64,000 nucleotides of DNA from Verrucomicrobiota bacterium. Lineage in GTDB: Bacteria; Verrucomicrobiota; Verrucomicrobiia; Opitutales; Opitutaceae. The stretch spans positions 1-64,000 of the forward strand of contig JAUWBF010000010.1 in the NCBI GenBank assembly GCA_030601755.1, written 5' to 3'. Within the stretch, counting starts at the first letter, position 1; each line of letters starts with the position of its first letter. The notes beneath the pieces are model-generated. The model worked only from the letters and a program-made list of their open reading frames with translations. It did no database searches and was not told where the DNA came from. This document shows positions 10,296 through 55,580 of this stretch, piece after piece. Both the position numbers and the translations under genes were made by a program.

Positions 10296-10393
10296 GTAGG
10301 GGCCTCGCTCGCGAGGCTCGTTCAACGCGTGACCGCAAAGCGCGCGTGATCTCCATGCCTGCGCGCAACGGGCCTCGCGAGCGAGGCCCCTAC
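10296..10393. repeat. Perfect 22-bp inverted repeat, each arm itself palindromic (type B)
   Basis: The left arm 10296-10317 begins GTAGGGGCCTCGC. The right arm 10372-10393 is its exact reverse complement, ending GCGAGGCCCCTAC. Within each arm, GCCTCGC and GCGAGGC also pair, so several alternative hairpins are possible. A diverged copy occurs at 21274-21372. The element lies in the 320-bp gap between chrA and the DMT gene and holds no gene. Confidence 0.85.
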
Positions 10394-10422: not shown

Positions 10423-10442
10423 CCCCGAGCTCACGCCCGGGG
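10423..10442. repeat. REP-like palindrome (type A)
   Basis: CCCCGAGC-TCAC-GCCCGGGG is an 8-4-8 hairpin with one mismatch. It belongs to the same family as the palindromes around the RAYT gene near 30 kb, in the TCAC-loop orientation. Confidence 0.7.
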
Positions 10443-10547
10443 CCACGGGGGAAGCGGGGCGCGGGCCTCGAGGCCACGGTTCAACTCGCCAAGCTCGCGG
10501 CGCCTGCAGGCTTCCCTTGCGGGCGAAAAACTTGCCTGCTGGCGGAC

Positions 10548-21273: not shown

Positions 21274-21372
21274 GTAGGGGCCGAGCTTGCTCGGTCCTTC
21301 AACCGTGCGCCGGTGAATGAACGTTGTCTCGCATGACAACGCCGCAACGGGCCGCGCTAGCGCGGCCCCTAC
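21274..21372. repeat. Imperfect inverted repeat, type B
   Basis: The left arm starts GTAGGGGCCGAGCTTGCTCG (21274) and the right arm ends CTAGCGCGGCCCCTAC (21372). Shared features with 10296-10393 are the GTAGGGGCC/GGCCCCTAC ends, a following TTCAACC..TG, an AACGGGCC before the right arm, and a length near 100 bp. It lies between the convergent ends of rpe and the binding-protein gene. Confidence 0.75.
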
Positions 21373-28220: not shown

Positions 28221-29861
28221 ATGGCCACTCCCGAGTTCACCTACCAAGACACCTTCGCCCTCGGCGCCGACGAGACCGAATACCGCCTCCTGTCCAAGGA
28301 AGGCGTCTCGACCGCCACCTTCGAGGGTCAGGAAATCCTCAAGGTCGCCCCCGAGGCCCTCGCCTACCTCGCGCAAAACGCCTTCCACGACTGCTCGTTC
28401 ATGCTGCGCCCAGCGCACCTCAAGCAGGTCCGCGCCATCCTCGACGACCCCGAGGCCTCCGAGAACGACCGCTACGTCGCCCTCACCCTGCTCAAGAACG
28501 CCGAGATCGCCGCGCAAGGCATCCTCCCCTTCTGCCAAGACACCGGCACCGCCATCATCATGGGCAAGAAAGGCCAGCAGGTCTGGACCGGCGCCGACGA
28601 CGCCGCCTACCTTTCCAAGGGCGTCTACGAGTGCTACACCAAGGAAAACCTCCGCTACTCCCAGACCGCGCCGCTGGACATGTATCGCGAGACCAACACC
28701 GGCACCAACCTCCCCGCGCAGATCGACCTCTACGCCACCAAGGGGGCCGAATACAAATTCCTCTTCGTCGCCAAGGGCGGCGGCTCGGCCAACAAGACCT
28801 TCCTTTACCAAGAGACCAAGGCGCTGCTGAACCCCAAGAGCCTCGAGAAGTTCTTCCTCGACAAGATGAAGACCCTCGGCACCGCCGCCTGCCCGCCCTA
28901 CCACCTCACCTTCGTGATCGGCGGCACCTCGGCCGAGACCTGCCTCAAGACCGTCAAGCTCGCCTCGACCAAATACTACGACGCGCTCCCCACCACCGGC
29001 AACGAGCACGGCCGCGCCTTCCGCGACATCGAGGCCGAGAAGCTCGTGCTCAAGCTCGCCCAGACCACCGGCATCGGCGCCCAGTTCGGCGGCAAATACT
29101 TCGCCCTCGACGTTCGCGTCGTCCGCCTGCCCCGCCACGGTGCCTCCTGCCCCGTCGGCATCGGCGTCTCCTGCTCGGCCGACCGCAACATCAAGGCCAA
29201 GATCAACCGGGACGGCATCTGGCTGGAAAAGATGGAGACCAACCCCGGCCGTCTCATCCCCGACGAACTCCGCCAGCTCAAGGACGACCACGTCGTGCGC
29301 ATCGACCTCAACCAGCCGATGCCCGCCATCCTCGCCGAGCTCAGCAAGCACCCCGTCACCACCCGCGTGTTGCTCAACGGCCCGCTCGTCGTCGCCCGCG
29401 ACATCGCCCACGCCAAGTTGAAGGAGCGCATCGACGCCGGCCAAGGCCTGCCCGACTACATCAAAAATCACCCGGTCTATTACGCCGGCCCCGCCAAGAC
29501 GCCGGTCGGCTACGCCTCCGGTAGTTTCGGACCCACGACGGCCGGCCGCATGGACAGCTATGTCGACCTCTTCCAGGAAAACGGCGGCTCCATGATCATG
29601 CTCGCCAAGGGCAACCGCTCCAAGGCCGTGACCGACGCCTGCAAAAAACACGGCGGCTTCTACCTCGGCTCGATCGGCGGTCCCGCCGCCATCCTCGCGA
29701 AGAACAACATCAAGAAGGTCGAGGTTCTCGAGTATCCCGAGCTGGGCATGGAGGCGGTCTGGAAGATCGAGGTCGAGGACTTCCCCGCCTTCATCCTCGT
29801 CGACGACAAGGGCAACGATTTCTTCGTCAACGGCTGCGGCGCCTGCGTGCCCGGCAAGTAA
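28221..29861 (+). CDS. Fumarate hydratase, class I (Fe-S)
   Basis: The 546-aa enzyme hydrates fumarate to malate in the TCA cycle. It is the oxygen-sensitive 4Fe-4S type: cysteines are seen in [10 protein letters not shown], in [18 protein letters not shown], and [11 protein letters not shown] follows in the C-terminal beta domain. The last residues GCGACVPGK also fit. Length matches FumA/FumB, with both alpha and beta domains fused. It stands alone; the next gene is a transposase among repeats. Confidence 0.95.
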
Positions 29862-29879
29862 GCGCGCAGCCATTCGTAG

Positions 29880-30069
29880 CCCCGAGCGTGAGCTCGGGGA
29901 CGCGTCAGATCAGCGGGCATGGACGTCGTGGGATTTTGGCACCGTCGATCCCCGAGCTCACGCTCGGGGCCACGCGGAGAGTCAGGACCAGGCAAAGATT
30001 CCGAGCCATGAGCGAGAACCAGCCACTCCACGACATTTTAGGCTTGTGGCCCGAGGCGTGAGCCGAGGG
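29880..30069. repeat. REP cluster upstream of the RAYT gene (three palindromes)
   Basis: Three 8-4-8 palindromes occur: 29880-29899 (CCCCGAGC-GTGA-GCTCGGGG), 29950-29969 (the same stem with loop TCAC, so inverted) and 30050-30069 (a variant CCCGAGGC-GTGA-GCCGAGGG). The alternating orientation is the layout of bacterial interspersed mosaic elements. The interval 29862-30079 contains no gene. Confidence 0.85.
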
Positions 30070-30079
30070 ACTCCGTCGC

Positions 30080-30616
30080 ATGCCCTTCGCTCCCAAGTCG
30101 AAACTCCCTCGACTTGAACGGCAGTGGTATCGCGGCCGGGCCGCCGTGCTCTGGACGCACACGCTCCACGACCGCGCCACCGGTTGGCTGACTCCGGATT
30201 TCCATCATCGTTTTCGGGAAATCCTTTTGCACACCTGCACCCGACATGACCTCACGTGCCCCGCCTATGTGCTGATGCCCGACCACTGGCACCTGCTTTG
30301 GCTCGGTGAGTCCGAAACCTCCGATCAACTGCAGGCGACCAAGTTTTTGCGCGAGCACCTCACCCCGGTTTTATCTCCCCACCGTTTGCAGCCGCAGGCC
30401 CACGACCACGTGCTGCGCGAGGAGGAACGCGCCCGCGACGCCATTCGTTCGGCCGGTCATTACATCTTTGAGAACCCGGTGCGGGCCGGGCTGACCGAAG
30501 ATTGGAAAACCTGGTCTTACATCGGCGCGATGGTCGTCGGTTACCCGCGGCTCGATCCACGAGACGAAGACCACTGGGAGCGCTTCTGGAGAATCCACGC
30601 CAGAACCACGGAGTAA
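30080..30616 (+). CDS. REP-associated tyrosine transposase (RAYT, Y1/IS200-like)
   Basis: The 178-aa product is a single-domain HUH endonuclease. The metal motif is MPDHWHLLW (His69, His71), and the likely nucleophile is Tyr128 in HYIFENPVRAGL, the typical RAYT ending. RAYTs are domesticated IS200/IS605 relatives that cut REP palindromes. This one is flanked on both sides by REP palindromes, strongly suggesting they are its substrate. The gene looks intact. The ATG at 30080 is 10 bp past the nearest palindrome. Confidence 0.92.
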   Translation: MPFAPKSKLPRLERQWYRGRAAVLWTHTLHDRATGWLTPDFHHRFREILLHTCTRHDLTCPAYVLMPDHWHLLWLGESETSDQLQATKFLREHLTPVLSPHRLQPQAHDHVLREEERARDAIRSAGHYIFENPVRAGLTEDWKTWSYIGAMVVGYPRLDPRDEDHWERFWRIHARTTE

Positions 30617-30625
30617 ACGCGTTCT

Positions 30626-30747
30626 CCCCGGGCTCACGCCCGGGGCCACATCAGCCAACTCCACTCTCGTGGCACGAGGCGTGAGCCGAGTGATTCGCGT
30701 GTGCAGCCTGCCTTCTCCAAACTCCCTCTCCGAGCTCACGCTCGGAG
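30626..30747. repeat. REP cluster downstream of the RAYT gene (three palindromes)
   Basis: Palindromes at 30626-30645 (CCCCGGGC-TCAC-GCCCGGGG, perfect), 30673-30692 (CACGAGGC-GTGA-GCCGAGTG) and 30728-30747 (CTCCGAGC-TCAC-GCTCGGAG, perfect) alternate in orientation, mirroring the upstream cluster. Stem sequence varies while the GTGA/TCAC loop is fixed. No gene is seen in 30617-30839. Confidence 0.85.
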
Positions 30748-30839
30748 CCACAGGATACTGGAGCCACTGGATGTGCGAAGCCACCGGAAGTCCGGAGCCA
30801 AACGATACGACACGTCGCCCTGCCCCACCCTGCACCCGA

Positions 30840-31256
30840 TTACTCCCCCGTCACCGTCACGATGATCTGACGCGTGTGCGGCGCGTCGCGGTGCTCCCAC
30901 AGGTAGATACCCTGCCAGGTGCCGAGCAGCATGCGGCCGCCGCCGATGGGCACGGTCTCGCTCGTGCGGGTGAGCGCCATCTTGATGTGGCTCGGCATGT
31001 CGTCCGGTCCCTCCATGGTGTGCTCGAAGTCGGGATCGTTCTCCGGCACCAACCGCGACAACCACCGGTGCAGATCGCGCCGCGCGGTCGGGTCGGCGTT
31101 TTCCATGATGACCAGCGAGCAGCTGGTGTGACGGCAGAACACGTTGACGAGCCCTGTTTTCACACCGCTGCGCGCAACCTCGTGCTCCACCTCGCCGGTG
31201 ATTTCGCGCAGCCCTTGGCCGCGCGATGAAAACGTAAGGACCGCCTGATGCGTCAT
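30840..31256 (-). CDS. YjbQ-family protein (secondary thiamine-phosphate synthase type)
   Basis: The 138-aa product is a compact single-domain protein with the UPF0047/YjbQ signatures VNVFCRHTSCSLVIMENADP, MPSHIKMAL and GTWQGIYLWEHRD. YjbQ proteins show weak thiamine-phosphate synthase activity; the true role is unsettled. ATG at 31256 begins the conserved fold; an in-frame start at 31355 would overlap the upstream gene. It is 43 bp downstream of the sigma-factor partner gene. Confidence 0.9.
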   Translation of the reverse strand: MTHQAVLTFSSRGQGLREITGEVEHEVARSGVKTGLVNVFCRHTSCSLVIMENADPTARRDLHRWLSRLVPENDPDFEHTMEGPDDMPSHIKMALTRTSETVPIGGGRMLLGTWQGIYLWEHRDAPHTRQIIVTVTGE

Positions 31257-31299
31257 CGTCGCCAAGTGGCTTCGTCGGAGTCGTCCGCGCGGGACAAAC

Positions 31300-32238
31300 T
31301 CAGAAGCTGATCGAGAGGCGGTCGCCGCCCACGCCGAGGCGCGAGGCCGAGGCATAAAGGATGTCGTCGTTGAGACGACCGGCCTGCTCGCGGGCGATGT
31401 TGGCCGAGACTTGGGCGGTCTCGCTGTCCTCAGCGGACTTGACCAGCGCCAGCAGACGGGCGTTGCGCGGAGACATTTCCGGGACCGTCGCGGAGGCCGG
31501 CTCGACGGTCGCCGAAGCCGCGGCCAGCGTCACCTCCGGAGCCGGCGACTCCACGGTGATGTCGACGGTCGGCAGGCGGACCAGCTCGGGATTGGCCTTG
31601 AGGGCGGCCGCGAGGTTGTCGGCGATGAAGCGTTGGGAGGGAGAGCGTTCGCCCGCGGAGCGAACAGCGTCGTCGCGGAGCAGGCCGACTCCGGGCAAAA
31701 GGGACGCGAGCGCGACGGCGGGCTCCGGCGAGGCGACGATCTCGGGCGCGAGCGGGGCGATCGGGCTGTTGTCGTCGGCTGCAACCGGCGCCGGGTCGGC
31801 GACTTCGGCAACCATCACCGGCACCTGCCCGGAAAGGCCGTCCAGCGGCGAAGGCACGTCGGCGGTCTCGGAAGCGATCTCGATGCTCGTGGCGGACTCG
31901 TTGGCGGCGGCGACCACGGGTTCGGCCGGCGTGTCATTGGCCGCGAAAACCGGCGCGGGCGTGTCCCCGGCGTCGGGCGCCCAGCCGATGGTCTGGTAGG
32001 AGACGGCGGCGAGGGCGAGCGCGGCGGCCGCGCCGGCGGGCAGGCCGACGGGGGCGAGTTTGCGACTCCAGATGGACAGGCCGAGCCACCAAGGGCGGGG
32101 TTCGATGGTGGCGGCGAGTTGTTTTCGACGAAGCTCCCGGTCGAATTGCGCCCAAAATTCGGGTTGCGGCCGCTCGGCGCGCTTGAGGCGAAGCAGTTCT
32201 TCCAAGGTCGGCTTGTTGGAGGAGTCGGGATTCGTCAT
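31300..32238 (-). CDS. Membrane partner of ECF sigma factor (putative anti-sigma)
   Basis: The 312-aa product has a short cytoplasmic N-terminus (about 1-60, LEELLRLKRAERPQPEFWAQ), one transmembrane helix (about 62-85) and a long Ala/Pro/Val-rich acidic extracytoplasmic region. Its start overlaps the sigma-factor stop by four bases (ATGA), the usual place for an anti-sigma factor. The classic zinc-binding HxxxCxxC motif is absent, so the inhibitory mechanism, if any, differs. Assignment is by position and topology only. Confidence 0.55.
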   Translation of the reverse strand: MTNPDSSNKPTLEELLRLKRAERPQPEFWAQFDRELRRKQLAATIEPRPWWLGLSIWSRKLAPVGLPAGAAAALALAAVSYQTIGWAPDAGDTPAPVFAANDTPAEPVVAAANESATSIEIASETADVPSPLDGLSGQVPVMVAEVADPAPVAADDNSPIAPLAPEIVASPEPAVALASLLPGVGLLRDDAVRSAGERSPSQRFIADNLAAALKANPELVRLPTVDITVESPAPEVTLAAASATVEPASATVPEMSPRNARLLALVKSAEDSETAQVSANIAREQAGRLNDDILYASASRLGVGGDRLSISF

Positions 32239-41510: not shown

Positions 41511-42875
41511 TCACGCCTTGCCGATGCCGGTGGCGCGGAAACCGAGGGCGGTGAGCTTGGCGAGGTCGAGGATGTTGCGGCCGTCGAAGAGGAAGGCGGG
41601 CTTCTGCATGCCGGCGTGGATGCGCTCGAAGTCGAGGGTCTTGAACTCGTCCCACTCCGTGAGCACCACCACGGCGTGCGCGCCTTCGCAGGCGGCGTAG
41701 GCGTCGGCGGCGGTGGTCAGGCGCGGGTTGGCGGGCGCGCCGGCGCCGAGCACGTCGGCGTTGATCTGCGCGGCGGAGACCTTGGGGTCGTAGACGACGA
41801 CGTTGGCCTGCTCGGCGAGCAGGTCGGAGCACACGCTGATGGCGGCGGTCTCGCGGGTGTCGTTGGTGTCCTTTTTAAAGGCGAAACCGAGCACGGCGAT
41901 TTTCTTGCCGGCGACGGTGTTAAACATGGTGCTGACGACCTTCGCGGCGAAGCGCTGCTTCTGCCAGTTGTTCATGCCGACGACGGACTCCCAGTAGGCG
42001 GCGACCTCGGGCAGGCCGAACCTTTGGCAAAGGTAGACGAGGTTGAGGATGTCCTTCTGGAAGCAGGAGCCGCCGAAGCCGACGGAGGCCTTGAGGAACT
42101 TGGGGCCGATGCGGGAATCCTTGCCGATGGCGCGGGCAACCTCGTCGACGTCGGCGCCGGTGGCCTCGCAGAGCGCGGAGATCGAGTTGATCGAGGAGAT
42201 GCGCTGGGCGAGGAAGGCGTTGGCGACGAGCTTGGAGAGTTCGGAGGACCAAAGGTTGGTCGTGATGATGCGCTCGCGCGGCACCCAGCGGGCGTAGACG
42301 GAGACGAGGGTCTCGACGGCGGCGTCGCCCTCGGGGGTGCGCTCGCCGCCGATGAGCACGCGGTCAGGGTTGAGCAAGTCGGCGACGGCGGTGCCTTCGG
42401 CGAGAAACTCGGGGTTGGAGAGAACCTGACAGGTGCAGCCGTGGCCGTTGGCCTGGATGATCTGCTGGATGGTCTCGGCGGTTTTTACCGGGATGGTCGA
42501 TTTCTCGACGATGATCTTCGGCGTGGTGGCGACCTCGGCGATAGTGCGGGCGACGGACTCGATGTAGCGCAGGTCGGCGGCGCGGCCGGCGCCGACGCCG
42601 TAGGTCTTGGTGGGGGTGTTGACCGAGACGAAGATGATGTCGGCCGCGGCGATGGCGGGTTTGACCTCGGTGGAGAAGAAGAGGTTTTTGCCGCGGCGCT
42701 CCTTCACGATCTCGTCGAGGCCGGGCTCATAGACGGGCAGGTGGTCGGAGTTCCAGGCGGCGATGCGCTTTTCGTTGAGGTCGACGACCGTGACCGTGAT
42801 GTCGTGGGCCTTGTAGGCGATCATCGCCATGGTGGGACCGCCAACGTAACCAGCGCCAATGCAACAAATCTTCAT
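41511..42875 (-). CDS. ugd: UDP-glucose 6-dehydrogenase, animal-like type
   Basis: The 454-aa enzyme oxidises UDP-glucose to UDP-glucuronate with NAD, for surface polysaccharide. It starts [14 protein letters not shown] and has catalytic Cys271 in [10 protein letters not shown], plus Lys in [11 protein letters not shown] and [20 protein letters not shown] contexts. By eye it is far closer to animal UGDH than to the short E. coli Ugd (388 aa): long stretches such as [10 protein letters not shown] and [11 protein letters not shown] are nearly the same. ATG at 42875 gives the full NAD fold. Confidence 0.95.
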
Positions 42876-43019: not shown

Positions 43020-43309
43020 ACCACGAAGAGCACGAACGGACACGAAGCCGACGTCGACGCATCGGACAGGGGAACCGCGAAAGGCGCGAATCGGCGCAAA
43101 ATTTCCCGCCGCCCGTGGCTCGTGGCCTGTAGCCCCGAGCGTGAGCTCGGGGATGACCGGAACTCGTGGGACAGGCAGGATGCCTGCGCTACCGAAGGCA
43201 GGCGTGAGCAGGTGGACGCGGGCCTCCGAACCGCGTCGGTTTGCGTGGCGTGAAGTGCGCGTGGCGTAGGGAAGCGCCGAAGACGCGGCCCGGAGGTCCG
43301 CATCCACCT
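43020..43309. repeat. Direct repeat R1 (about 290 bp), with REP palindrome
   Basis: The stretch starts CCACGAAGAGCACGAACGGA and ends CCGCATCCACC. It matches 44981-45251 in the same orientation with scattered substitutions and one gap of about 20 bp. A type-A REP palindrome sits at 43133-43152. The 604 bp gap 42876-43479 also holds a reverse copy of the CACGAAG motif near 43438-43459 and low-complexity CTC-rich DNA at 43327-43385, but no supported gene. Confidence 0.85.
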
Positions 43310-43479: not shown

Positions 43480-44739
43480 TCAGACGGCCTTGAAGATGAT
43501 CGAGGCGTTCTGGCCGCCGAAGCCGAGGTTGTTGCTGAGGACAACGTTGACCTTTTGCTCGCGACCCTGGTTGGGCACGTAGTCGAGGTCGCACTCGGGG
43601 TCGGGCTCGTGGAGGTTGATGGTCGGGGCGATTTGGCCCTTCTCGATGGTCTTCACGGCAATGACCGACTCGATGCCGCCGGCGGCACCGAGGAGGTGGC
43701 CGGTCATGGACTTGGTCGAACTGATGGGGAGCGACTTGGCGGCGTCGCCGAAGACGCGCTTGATGGCGAGGGTCTCGAACTTGTCGTTGTAGGGGGTCGA
43801 GGTGCCGTGGGCGTTGATGTAGTCGACGTCGGCGGGGTTGAGGCCGGCGGCGCGCAGGGCGCGGGTCATGGCCATGCCGAGGCCCTTGCCCTCGGGGTCG
43901 GGCATGGTGATGTGATGGGCATCGGCGGTGGCGGCGTAGCCGACGACTTCGCAGTAGATGCGGGCGCCGCGTTTCTGGGCGTGTTCCAGCGACTCGAGCA
44001 CGAGCACGCCGGCGCCCTCGCCCATCACGAAGCCGTCGCGGCCCATGGAGAAGGGACGGCAGGCGGTGGCGGGGTCGTCGTTGCGATTGCTCATGGCCTT
44101 CATGGAGCAGAAGCTGGCGAACCCGAAGGGCGTGACGGCGGCCTCGGTGCCGCCGGCGAGCATGATGTCGGCGTCGCCGCGCTTGATCATGTGCATGGCC
44201 TCGCCGATGGCGTGGGTGCCGGTGGCGCAGGCGGAGACGACGCCGAAGTTGGGCCCGCGGGCGCCGAGGTCGATGGCGATCATGCCCGAGCAGATGTTGC
44301 TGATCAGCGCCGGGATGGTGAAGGGAGACACCTTGCGGGGACCGCCTTCGACGAATTTACGGAGCTGGGTCTCGTAGGTGAGCATGCCACCGATGCCGGA
44401 GCCGACGAGCACGCCGACGCGGTCAGGGTCCTCGTTGGCCATGTCGAGGCCGGAGTCCTTGAAGGCCTGCTTGGCGGCGCAGAAGCCGAAGTGGGTGTAG
44501 CGATCGTTGCGACGCGCTTCCTTGGGGTCCATGTGCTCCTCGACGTTCCAGCCCTTGACCTCGGAGCCCATCTGGGTGGTCAGCGCGGAGGGGTCGAACA
44601 GGGAGATGCGGTCGATGCCGTTCTTGCCGGCGACGAGGCTGGCGAAGAAGGACTCGGCGTCGAAGCCGAGGCCGTGGATGGCGCCGAGGCCGGTGACGAC
44701 CACGCGTTGGGAGGGGGGAAGGGATTCCATGGCGTTCAA
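43480..44739 (-). CDS. fabF: Beta-ketoacyl-ACP synthase II
   Basis: The 419-aa condensing enzyme extends fatty-acyl-ACP chains. The Cys-His-His triad is visible: Cys171 in VSACATGTHAIG, His in NAHGTSTPYND and His in MTGHLLGAAGG. Length is normal. ATG at 44739 is used; ATG at 44730 is equally possible. acpP and fabG lie upstream on the same strand, but a 604-bp repeat-filled gap separates them, so fabF may have its own promoter. Direct repeats R1 and R2 flank it. Confidence 0.96.
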   Translation of the reverse strand: MNAMESLPPSQRVVVTGLGAIHGLGFDAESFFASLVAGKNGIDRISLFDPSALTTQMGSEVKGWNVEEHMDPKEARRNDRYTHFGFCAAKQAFKDSGLDMANEDPDRVGVLVGSGIGGMLTYETQLRKFVEGGPRKVSPFTIPALISNICSGMIAIDLGARGPNFGVVSACATGTHAIGEAMHMIKRGDADIMLAGGTEAAVTPFGFASFCSMKAMSNRNDDPATACRPFSMGRDGFVMGEGAGVLVLESLEHAQKRGARIYCEVVGYAATADAHHITMPDPEGKGLGMAMTRALRAAGLNPADVDYINAHGTSTPYNDKFETLAIKRVFGDAAKSLPISSTKSMTGHLLGAAGGIESVIAVKTIEKGQIAPTINLHEPDPECDLDYVPNQGREQKVNVVLSNNLGFGGQNASIIFKAV

Positions 44740-44886
44740 GGAGGGCGTTGAAAAATAGGAAGGGGAACAGTCGCGACGGGGTTTGGCAATGCCGGTTGCA
44801 GGGTCGCCTGAGTTGCGCGCGGATCAAGCGGAAGGGGTGTTTTGCGAAGAAGGAGTGTGGCCGGGCGGGGAGAACGGATCTCGTAG

Positions 44887-44906
44887 CCCCGAGCGTGAGC
44901 TCGGGG
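44887..44906. repeat. REP-like palindrome (type A)
   Basis: CCCCGAGC-GTGA-GCTCGGGG, a perfect 8-4-8 hairpin identical to the copies at 29880 and 43133, in the gap between fabF and acpP. Confidence 0.8.
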
Positions 44907-44980: not shown

Positions 44981-45251
44981 CCACGAAGCGCACGAAGGGA
45001 CACGAAGTCGACGCCGACGCATCAGGCGGAGAGAACCGCGAAGGGCGCGAATCGCGCAAAATTCCCACAGCCCGTGGCCCGTGGCTTGCAGCCCGTAGCT
45101 CCAAGCGTGAGCTCAGGGATGACCGGAAGGCGTGGCGAAGGCAGGCGTGAGCAGGTGGACGCGGGCCTCCGGACCGCGTCGGTTTGCGTGTGTGAAGTGC
45201 GCGTGGCGTAGGGAGGACGCGGAAGACGCGGCACGGAGGCCCGCATCCACC
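44981..45251. repeat. Direct repeat R2 (about 270 bp)
   Basis: Second copy of R1, starting CCACGAAGCGCACGAAGGGA and ending CCGCATCCACCT. It contains a decayed REP palindrome (45099-45118) where R1 has a perfect one, and lacks about 20 bp around a GGCAGGATGCCTGC segment of R1. Nothing gene-like is supported in 44740-45343; short open frames here are encoded by repeat DNA. Confidence 0.85.
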
Positions 45252-53620: not shown

Positions 53621-54589
53621 ATGATCCATTCCTTCATCTTCAGCGACGGCAAACTGGCGGGACGCGACCTCGAGCTCGAGGCCCTCCGGCTCGTGCGCGC
53701 AGACAAGGGTCTCTACCTCTGGATCGATCTCGACCACCCCACCGACGAGGAGATCCGCGACGTGCTCGAGGGCATCTTCAAGTTTCACCCCCTCGCCATC
53801 GAGGACTGCGTTACCCCCAGCTCGCTGCCCAAGGTCGAGGACTACGAGGACTACCTCTTCCTCGTCGCCCACGCGGTCGACTTCACCCGCCGCGAGGAGT
53901 TTCACACCGCCGAGCTGAACCTGTTTCTCGGCAAGGATTTTCTGGTCACCTTTCACCGCTCGCCGCTCAAGTCCGTGCAGTCCGTCATCGACCGCTGCGC
54001 CAAGTCCCACGGCGTCGTCGCCCGCGGCCCCGACCGTCTCGCGCACCTCGTGCTCGACGCCATGGTCGACAACTACAAGCCCGTCACCGACGACCTGCGC
54101 GTCGAGCTCGACCAGATCGAGGAGACCGTGCTCGACGCCGAGGACGAGAACCTCACCGAGCGCCTGCTCGAGGTGCGCGCCGAGATCAACCACCTGCGCC
54201 AAGTCGTGCGTCCGCAGCGCGAGATGATCCACCGCCTCGCCCACGGCGAGTCCAAGCTCATCCGCTCGGTCATGCTCCCCTACTTCCGCGACCTTCGCGA
54301 CAACCTCGTGCGCATCGAGGAAACCGCCACCACCTACTCGGACCAGTTGCTCATCTCGTTCGACCTCTACCTGAGCAAGTCCGACTTCAAGGCCAACGAG
54401 GGCATCAAGGTTCTCACCGCCCTCACCGCGCTCAGCCTGCCGGCCACCATCATCGGCACCTGGTATGGCATGAACTTCGCGCGCATGCCCGAGCTCGACT
54501 CGCCGCTCGGCTATCCGGCCGCGTTCTTCGTGACCGTCGTGCTCACCTTCCTCGTCTACCGCTGGTGCAAGCGCCGGCGCATGATCTGA
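53621..54589 (+). CDS. corA: CorA-family Mg2+/Co2+ channel (copy 1)
   Basis: The 322-aa protein has the long cytoplasmic N-terminal domain (about 1-255) and two C-terminal helices. The first helix ends in the selectivity motif WYGMNF (about 289-294), as needed for magnesium conduction. ATG at 53621 is supported by alignment with copy 2, which starts the same way (TLVYRD / SFIFSD). It is followed by copy 2 after 19 bp. Confidence 0.93.
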   Translation: MIHSFIFSDGKLAGRDLELEALRLVRADKGLYLWIDLDHPTDEEIRDVLEGIFKFHPLAIEDCVTPSSLPKVEDYEDYLFLVAHAVDFTRREEFHTAELNLFLGKDFLVTFHRSPLKSVQSVIDRCAKSHGVVARGPDRLAHLVLDAMVDNYKPVTDDLRVELDQIEETVLDAEDENLTERLLEVRAEINHLRQVVRPQREMIHRLAHGESKLIRSVMLPYFRDLRDNLVRIEETATTYSDQLLISFDLYLSKSDFKANEGIKVLTALTALSLPATIIGTWYGMNFARMPELDSPLGYPAAFFVTVVLTFLVYRWCKRRRMI

Positions 54590-54608
54590 CCGCGGCGCAG
54601 CCGTCCCC

Positions 54609-55580
54609 ATGATCACCACGCTCGTCTATCGCGACCATCGCCTCGCCGGCCACAATCCGCCGGTGGAGTCGCTCGCGTCGTTGCGCGCCGAGCCCGGCGT
54701 CATGCTCTGGCTCGACCTCTCCGCGCCCACGCCGGAGGAGATCAACCTGGTGCTCGAGCAGCTCTTCGCCTTTCACCCGCTCATCATAGAAGACTGCACG
54801 GTCGACAACCCGTTCCCGAAGCTGGAGTTCTACGAGGACCACCTGTTCCTCGTGATGCACGCGGTCGACTATTCGAAGACCGACAAGTTCACGACGACCG
54901 AACTCGACGTGATGCTCGGGAAAAACTTCCTCGTCACCTTTCACCGCGAGCCGCTGCGCGCCGTGCAGACCGTGATCGAGCGCTACCAGCGGATGCCCGG
55001 CACGCTCGTGCGCGGCCCCGACCGCCTCGCCCACACGCTGCTCGACCAGATCGTCGAGGCCTACAAACCCGCCCTCAACGAGCTGCGCGACGACCTCGAG
55101 ACCATCGAGGAGGACGTGCTCCGCCACGTGGCCGCCGACGAGTTGTTTCCCCGCATCGTCGACCTGCGCAAGGAGCTCGCCCAGCTCCGCCAGATCGTGC
55201 GCCCGCAGCACCAGATCGTGGCCGAGCTGGCGCAGGGCAAGGCCCGCCTCATCCGCCCCGTGATCCTGCCCTACCTGCGCGACCTCGCGGAGGACTTGGG
55301 CCGCATCGAGGCCCAGGCCGTGTCGTGGGCCGAGCAGTTGATTTTGTCGTTCCGCGTCTATCTCAACAAGAACAGCCACGAGGCCAACGAGGGCATCCGT
55401 ATCCTCACGGCCATTACGGCGCTGACGCTGCCGCCATTCATCCTCGCCGGCTGGTATGGCATGAACTTCCGCCACATGCCCGAGCTGGCCCACGGCACGG
55501 GTTATCCGATCGTCGGCGCGCTGATGGTCGCCAGCACGACCGGCATGTTTCTGCTGCTGAAGAAAAAGGGCTGGCTGTAG
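54609..55580 (+). CDS. corA: CorA-family Mg2+/Co2+ channel (copy 2)
   Basis: The 323-aa protein is a clear paralogue of the previous gene: same length, shared FHPLIIEDC / FHPLAIEDC, RGPDRLAHTLLD / RGPDRLAHLVLD, and the channel motif WYGMNFRHMPEL. The two probably arose by an old tandem duplication, since they differ throughout. They could form mixed pentamers or serve different ions or conditions. The downstream 180 bp contains a perfect 23-bp inverted repeat. Confidence 0.93.
   Translation: MITTLVYRDHRLAGHNPPVESLASLRAEPGVMLWLDLSAPTPEEINLVLEQLFAFHPLIIEDCTVDNPFPKLEFYEDHLFLVMHAVDYSKTDKFTTTELDVMLGKNFLVTFHREPLRAVQTVIERYQRMPGTLVRGPDRLAHTLLDQIVEAYKPALNELRDDLETIEEDVLRHVAADELFPRIVDLRKELAQLRQIVRPQHQIVAELAQGKARLIRPVILPYLRDLAEDLGRIEAQAVSWAEQLILSFRVYLNKNSHEANEGIRILTAITALTLPPFILAGWYGMNFRHMPELAHGTGYPIVGALMVASTTGMFLLLKKKGWL

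Follow-up and report, generated by a model that had tools for sequence, protein, structure and literature searches.

How does a RAYT choose its REP, and how does it find the correct strand? Published RAYTs (REP-associated tyrosine transposases) divide into those that require a bulge and those that require a loop on a perfect stem, and the RAYT clade considered here offers both forms of substrate, at three loci under one enzyme. One of these loci lies in the window (the whole 64,000-nt stretch of DNA that was analysed), which is part of contig C55 in a draft genome (G000) of 3.55 Mb and 96% completeness. We propose that the locus is, with high probability, a REPtron, that is, a single-copy domesticated HUH/Y1 transposase gene with its cognate REPs, present both in flanking inverted pairs and as a dispersed non-autonomous family. 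It belongs to a known kind but has a variant substrate: here and in relatives, the stems of many palindromes have a conserved and unusual GA/GA mismatch.

The RAYT gene and its setting

A gap of 978 nt between a class-I-fumarase-like gene and a yjbQ-like gene contains one 178-codon gene and six palindromes. The names of genes other than the RAYT come from reading of the sequence.

28221-29861: class-I-fumarase-like gene
30080-30616, plus strand: RAYT (TnpA-REP) gene, 178 aa, with HWH motif H69-W70-H71 and catalytic Y128
30840-31355, minus strand: yjbQ-like gene

The identity of the 30080-30616 product as a RAYT is supported by profile, sequence, fold and catalytic residues. The NCBIfam profile NF047646 (REP_Tyr_transpos) matches residues 16-147 with 53.4 bits (E=2.4e-14), a score below the curated cut-off of 80 bits; a Pfam search gave no match at E<=0.001, Y1_Tnp included. 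By phmmer, the protein matches the E. coli TnpA-REP structure 4er8 (E=0.0013). The AlphaFold model is confident (pLDDT 92.6), and its top Foldseek match is again 4er8, in the REP-hairpin-bound form (E=1.8e-9, TM 0.65/0.70), followed by the ISDra2 and IS608 transposases. Residues H69, H71, Y128 and N132 are present in every one of 15 aligned sequences, and the nearest RAYT relatives are found in Opitutae and other Verrucomicrobiota. IS200/IS605 elements are autonomous and multi-copy, often with tnpB; the RAYT gene occurs once in its own genome, and no tnpB-like ORF was seen adjacent to it.

The fumarase-like and yjbQ-like genes stand in the same convergent order, without a RAYT, in 10 of the 29 relatives examined. 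There, the spacing is 13-234 nt between match ends, which is too narrow for a RAYT gene. The simplest reading is that the RAYT and its REPs entered the gap later.

Two REP classes around the gene and across the genome

The original prediction held that three 8-4-8 palindromes precede and three follow the transposase gene as mirror-image clusters with alternating GTGA and TCAC loops. All six were found at the expected places:

29876-29899, plus strand (palindrome from 29880): class A REP, GTAG CCCCGAGC GTGA GCTCGGGG
29950-29973, minus strand: class A REP, GTGG CCCCGAGC GTGA GCTCGGGG
30046-30069, plus strand (palindrome from 30050): class B REP with tandem G-A, GTGG CCCGAGGC GTGA GCCGAGGG
30626-30649, minus strand: class A variant, GTGG CCCCGGGC GTGA GCCCGGGG
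30669-30692, plus strand (palindrome from 30673): class B REP with tandem G-A and a paired change, GTGG CACGAGGC GTGA GCCGAGTG
30728-30751, minus strand: class A variant with a paired change, GTGG CTCCGAGC GTGA GCTCGGAG

The loops alternate as proposed, GTGA/TCAC/GTGA before the gene and TCAC/GTGA/TCAC after it. Four of the palindromes are perfect; the two of class B, at 30050 and 30673, instead have a tandem G-A mismatch in mid-stem. The paired change in the class B copy at 30669 turns C-G into A-T and leaves the GA untouched. The mirror image is real in strand (+ - + / gene / - + -), but the two sides differ in sequence, with the class order A+ A- B+ / gene / A- B+ A-. All six REPs have a GTGG or GTAG tetranucleotide on their 5′ side. 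This guide, as well as an A on the 3′ side of the REPs, was missed in the original prediction. In all, the window has six perfect 8-4-8 stems with a GTGA/TCAC loop, and 20 random sequences of equal dinucleotide make-up have none.

The same family is dispersed in the window:

10423-10446, minus strand: class A REP with one stem mismatch, between chromate-transporter-like and EamA-like genes (names by sequence reading)
43129-43152, plus strand (palindrome from 43133): class A REP identical to that at 29876, between the genes at 41511-42875 and 43480-44739
44883-44906, plus strand (palindrome from 44887): class A REP identical to that at 29876, upstream of the 43480-44739 gene
45095-45118, plus strand (palindrome from 45099): decayed class A REP, beside a stretch duplicated with the one that adjoins 43129

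Thus, the copies predicted at 43133 and 44887 match the palindrome at 29880 exactly, and 10423 and 45099 do hold variants of it. Because the REPs at 43133 and 45099 both adjoin the duplicated stretch (98% identity over 55 nt), they may not be two independent insertions. All window REPs of the RAYT-flanking family are intergenic.

A degenerate REP pattern matches the genome at 81 places with at most three mismatches, against 4 for the reversed pattern, and at 50 with at most one mismatch, against 0. The same pattern gives just three isolated matches in 94 relatives. Deduplicated, the family has about 53 copies, 36 of class A and 17 of class B, with the guide GTGG in 41 and GTAG in 12. The two classes have the guide, the loop and an outer C-C-C/G-G-G in common. 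Class A stems vary with compensation: 93% of the cells are paired, four pairs show changes on both sides (12 such cells in 15 distinct rows), and the covariation score is 0.37, as against 0.22 for shuffled and at most 0.195 for slid alignments. Class B is nearly uniform, 15 of its 17 copies being identical, and every copy has a mid-stem 5′-GA-3′ opposite 5′-GA-3′.

The base that follows the stem (+1) is A in 52 of the 53 copies, as at window position 29900, and also in the nearest relatives (L111, L112, L041 and L171). Upstream, C is enriched at -5 (38/53) and -7 (36/53), with both guides. Together, these conserved positions indicate that the functional unit is longer than the palindrome. With regard to orientation, 17 of the 19 REP neighbours within 120 nt are inverted, which is the arrangement of REPINs and BIMEs (inverted neighbours at short spacing). 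By class, the inverted neighbours comprise 12 A-B, five A-A and no B-B pairs (binomial p=0.02).

Other repeats were seen in the same DNA. A second, unrelated REP family, GTAG GGGCCTCG CTCG CGAGGCCC, lies at window positions 10296-10319 (plus), 10370-10393 (minus) and 21349-21372 (minus). It is commoner, with 108 copies at three mismatches or fewer (reversed control, 0). Its stems show many paired changes, its inverted pairs are spaced by about 74 nt, and none of the RAYT genes found is flanked by this CTCG-loop family. A third palindrome family (GTGG ACGCGG...CCGCGT) lies at 43193-43247 and 45136-45190, adjoining the REPs at 43129 and 45095, and four of its copies surround another RAYT-like gene (C6:5818-6156, L105). 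The genome, therefore, probably has at least two REPtrons. Finally, long imperfect direct repeats about 990 nt apart and 71-73% identical, at 53893-55486, are probably tandem paralogous genes or domains.

Related RAYT loci and the tandem G-A stem

The original prediction regarded the complete pairing of a RAYT and its substrate as rare. This did not hold. We sought REPs in the 400-nt flanks of 90 related RAYT genes with a detector for perfect and tandem-GA stems, and 252 were found, against five in the flanks read backwards. At least two REPs are present at 59 of the 90 loci, which show the REPtron set-up as the window does. An apparent lack of REPs at about two thirds of related RAYTs was an artefact of a perfect-stem detector blind to tandem G-A stems. 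A view of the REP-less clades as TIR-flanked “TIRYTs” was likewise dropped, as most of their inverted repeats are GTAG REPs.

The REPs of the window's RAYT clade come in two forms: the 8-bp stem is perfect in one, and in the other it is interrupted by tandem 5′-GA-3′/5′-GA-3′. Among tandem double mismatches at the RAYT loci, GA/GA was counted 123 times and the next type four times, and the reversed control had no GA/GA at all. It occurs at 37 of the 90 loci, at stem positions 6-7 (84), 5-6 (37) or 4-5 (2, both from the window). Both forms are present at three loci, namely the window, L127 and L147. Among REPs with four-base loops, GNNA is followed by 71 of the 82 that are perfect and by 107 of the 112 that are GA-type, and the REP form tracks the RAYT tree, with six changes against 13-27 in 300 shuffles. 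At loci with perfect REPs on both strands, the agreement between strands is 90% for the outer four stem bases, 65% for the inner four and 85% for the loop, so that it is the loop-adjacent part that differs most between the two REP classes. Over all pairs, the correlation of conservation with RAYT identity is weakly stronger for the loop than for the stem (Spearman 0.18 and 0.14); therefore, we do not regard the loop as the sole carrier of specificity.

The REPs with GA-type stems form genuine families. Genome-wide, one GA-type pattern has 272 copies in G042, 145 in G058, 133 in G017 and 21 in G060 and none when reversed, and the copies are often inverted pairs 46 nt apart. When the four mismatch positions were left free in G017, GA/GA was retained in 84 of the 94 listed copies; the other ten were one base off, and none had full Watson-Crick pairing.

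Are REPs and RAYTs found together? In 95 genomes, REPs were counted with a covariance model of perfect four-base-loop REPs, among up to 83 candidates scored per genome. Where a close RAYT is present, 8 of 13 genomes had ten or more; for a weak match the figure was 5 of 20, and without a RAYT it was 3 of 62 (close versus none, Fisher p=1e-5). Palindromes equally common in relatives without a RAYT, the outcome against which the original prediction had staked itself, were thus not observed. The five close-RAYT genomes that lack such REPs (G036, G058, G020, G081 and G092) have GA-type or 3-nt-loop REPs at the gene instead. A query with the window protein found no RAYT in the REP-rich G017, G065, G053 and G080. 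G017 and G065 are very rich in REPs of the perfect and GA types; RAYT loss, which is reported for E. coli (PMC3733652), may be one explanation, and an assembly gap may be another.

The palindromes might instead be kept for a host role, such as transcription termination, mRNA stability or supercoiling, with the RAYT merely sitting among them. Their intergenic positions would suit such a role, and effects of REPs on RNA ends have been reviewed (PMC3733652, PMC2817692). However, the copies have no terminal T-runs, the guide and the +1 A are conserved although they lie outside the stem, and GA/GA mismatches weaken a terminator hairpin. Moreover, the REP families are private to their genomes and track the presence and type of the RAYT, and we consider the host role improbable. 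It is more improbable still that gene and REPs move jointly as a classic IS200/IS605-like transposon, even though gene and six REPs sit in an otherwise narrow fumarase-yjbQ gap and the fold matches that of IS200/IS605 TnpA. Two RAYT copies in one genome, L172 and L173, have identical genes with identity reaching 189 nt upstream and 128 nt downstream, a possible case of recent movement or duplication. Against joint movement, the RAYT is single-copy in its genome with no adjacent tnpB-like ORF, REPs are found without the gene, and, according to the literature, REPtrons do not seem to transpose as whole units (PMC6006769).

As for class B, its guide, loop and outer C-C-C/G-G-G in common with class A could be taken to mean that it is decayed class A with a meaningless G-A mismatch. 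This we find barely credible, given that 15 of 17 class B copies are identical, that GA/GA, present at 37 of the 90 loci, is the dominant tandem mismatch, and that another genome, G017, keeps it without a single Watson-Crick repair. The pairing of the RAYT with the palindromes as its substrate, which it probably spread, as originally proposed, is supported by their flanking position, by the genome-wide copies and by the association of close RAYTs with REP counts in the 95 genomes.

Proposed substrate and strand recognition

TnpA-REP is known to cut single-stranded REPs but not their complements, and the GTAG motif has a guide-like role towards the cleavage site. An unpaired zone in the stem is required by a group-2 enzyme and a base in the loop by group-3 enzymes, and a GTGG guide is predicted to shift cutting to CC (PMC8266576). 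By this published behaviour, we infer that the window enzyme acts likewise, through GTGG/GTAG, the GNNA loop and a paired or GA-broken stem. In single-stranded DNA, for example at the replication fork, the REP strand would fold into a hairpin, and the enzyme would recognise the 5′ guide, the GNNA loop and the lower stem. The guide would pair with the cleavage site, and Tyr128 would cut and rejoin the strand, so that REP pairs are copied or moved. One enzyme would serve two REP classes, the fully paired A and the G-A-broken B; the inverted A-B pair is the commonest unit. The suggestion that the loop is what the enzyme reads is plausible and fits group-3 SELEX (PMC8266576). Conservation, however, is not confined to the loop and extends to the guide, the +1 A, the lower stem and, in many REPs, the tandem G-A.

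What, then, might mark the strand to be cut? The strand opposite the REP has a TNNC loop and a TC/TC mismatch, and we therefore propose that GNNA and GA/GA together could mark the REP strand. Tandem G-A pairs, and G-A across GNNA loops, are compact in DNA. It is tempting to propose, although we hold it as rather doubtful, a purine code in which GNNA loops and tandem G-A would form sheared G-A pairs on the REP strand only, would be selected by the enzyme and would mark the strand, one RAYT reading paired and G-A-broken hairpins as unequal ends of a mobile unit. Sheared pairing and strand marking, like cleavage and mobilisation, are predicted steps. For each of five pairs, the computed folding energy of the DNA is in favour of the REP strand, by 0.5-1.6 kcal/mol only; the marker, if any, is more likely shape than stability. 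For GA at positions 6-7, the folding program draws an open 10-nt loop.

For RAYTs, the literature already describes flanking REPs, co-evolution, heterodimers and the presence of several REP subfamilies for a single gene (PMC2817692, PMC3733652 and PMC6006769). The E. coli REPtron (TnpA-REP/YafM; Y, Z1 and Z2 REPs; 4er8) has the HUH/Y1 fold in common with ours (TM 0.65/0.70), at about 20% protein identity. It also has two REP types in inverted alternation around the gene, a GTAG guide and a mid-stem mismatch, which is needed for activity there (PMC8266576, PMC2817692). The mismatch, however, is AA/GC in E. coli and tandem GA/GA here. Our locus differs further in its GNNA loop, in a guide that is mostly GTGG and in the fully paired REPs that belong to the same enzyme. 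REPtron Sm of Stenotrophomonas maltophilia (group 3) resembles ours in its short REP, 8-bp stem and short loop, a base of which is essential for cutting, but differs in its GCT loop and GTAG guide; its cutting was impaired or almost lost with a mid-stem mismatch, a feature that class B has by nature (PMC8266576). The unpaired mid-stem zone of group 2 is found in class B only, and the perfect short stem and conserved loop of group 3 in class A only.

The GTAG-17/19/20 repeats of Opitutus terrae, also Verrucomicrobia, are GTAG/GTGG-tagged palindromes that form dimers; tandem GA is absent from their description in the text of PMC3733652, a comparison by wording. The RAYT of that species (probably L052, which is a guess) is only about 34% identical to that of the window and has 3-nt-loop REPs. 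The GTAG-24 repeats of Pseudomonas aeruginosa have a GTAG tag and a stem broken by unpaired GA, described in the fifth position, but their stems are of 12-13 bp and the phylum is another (PMC3733652). This unpaired GA may be related to the GA/GA class. No description of a tandem GA/GA REP class was found in the literature searched, whose reach took in few subscription papers.

These loci provide matched natural substrates that differ mainly in GA/GA, which makes the substrate question directly testable, and they extend well-documented REPtrons across Verrucomicrobiota.
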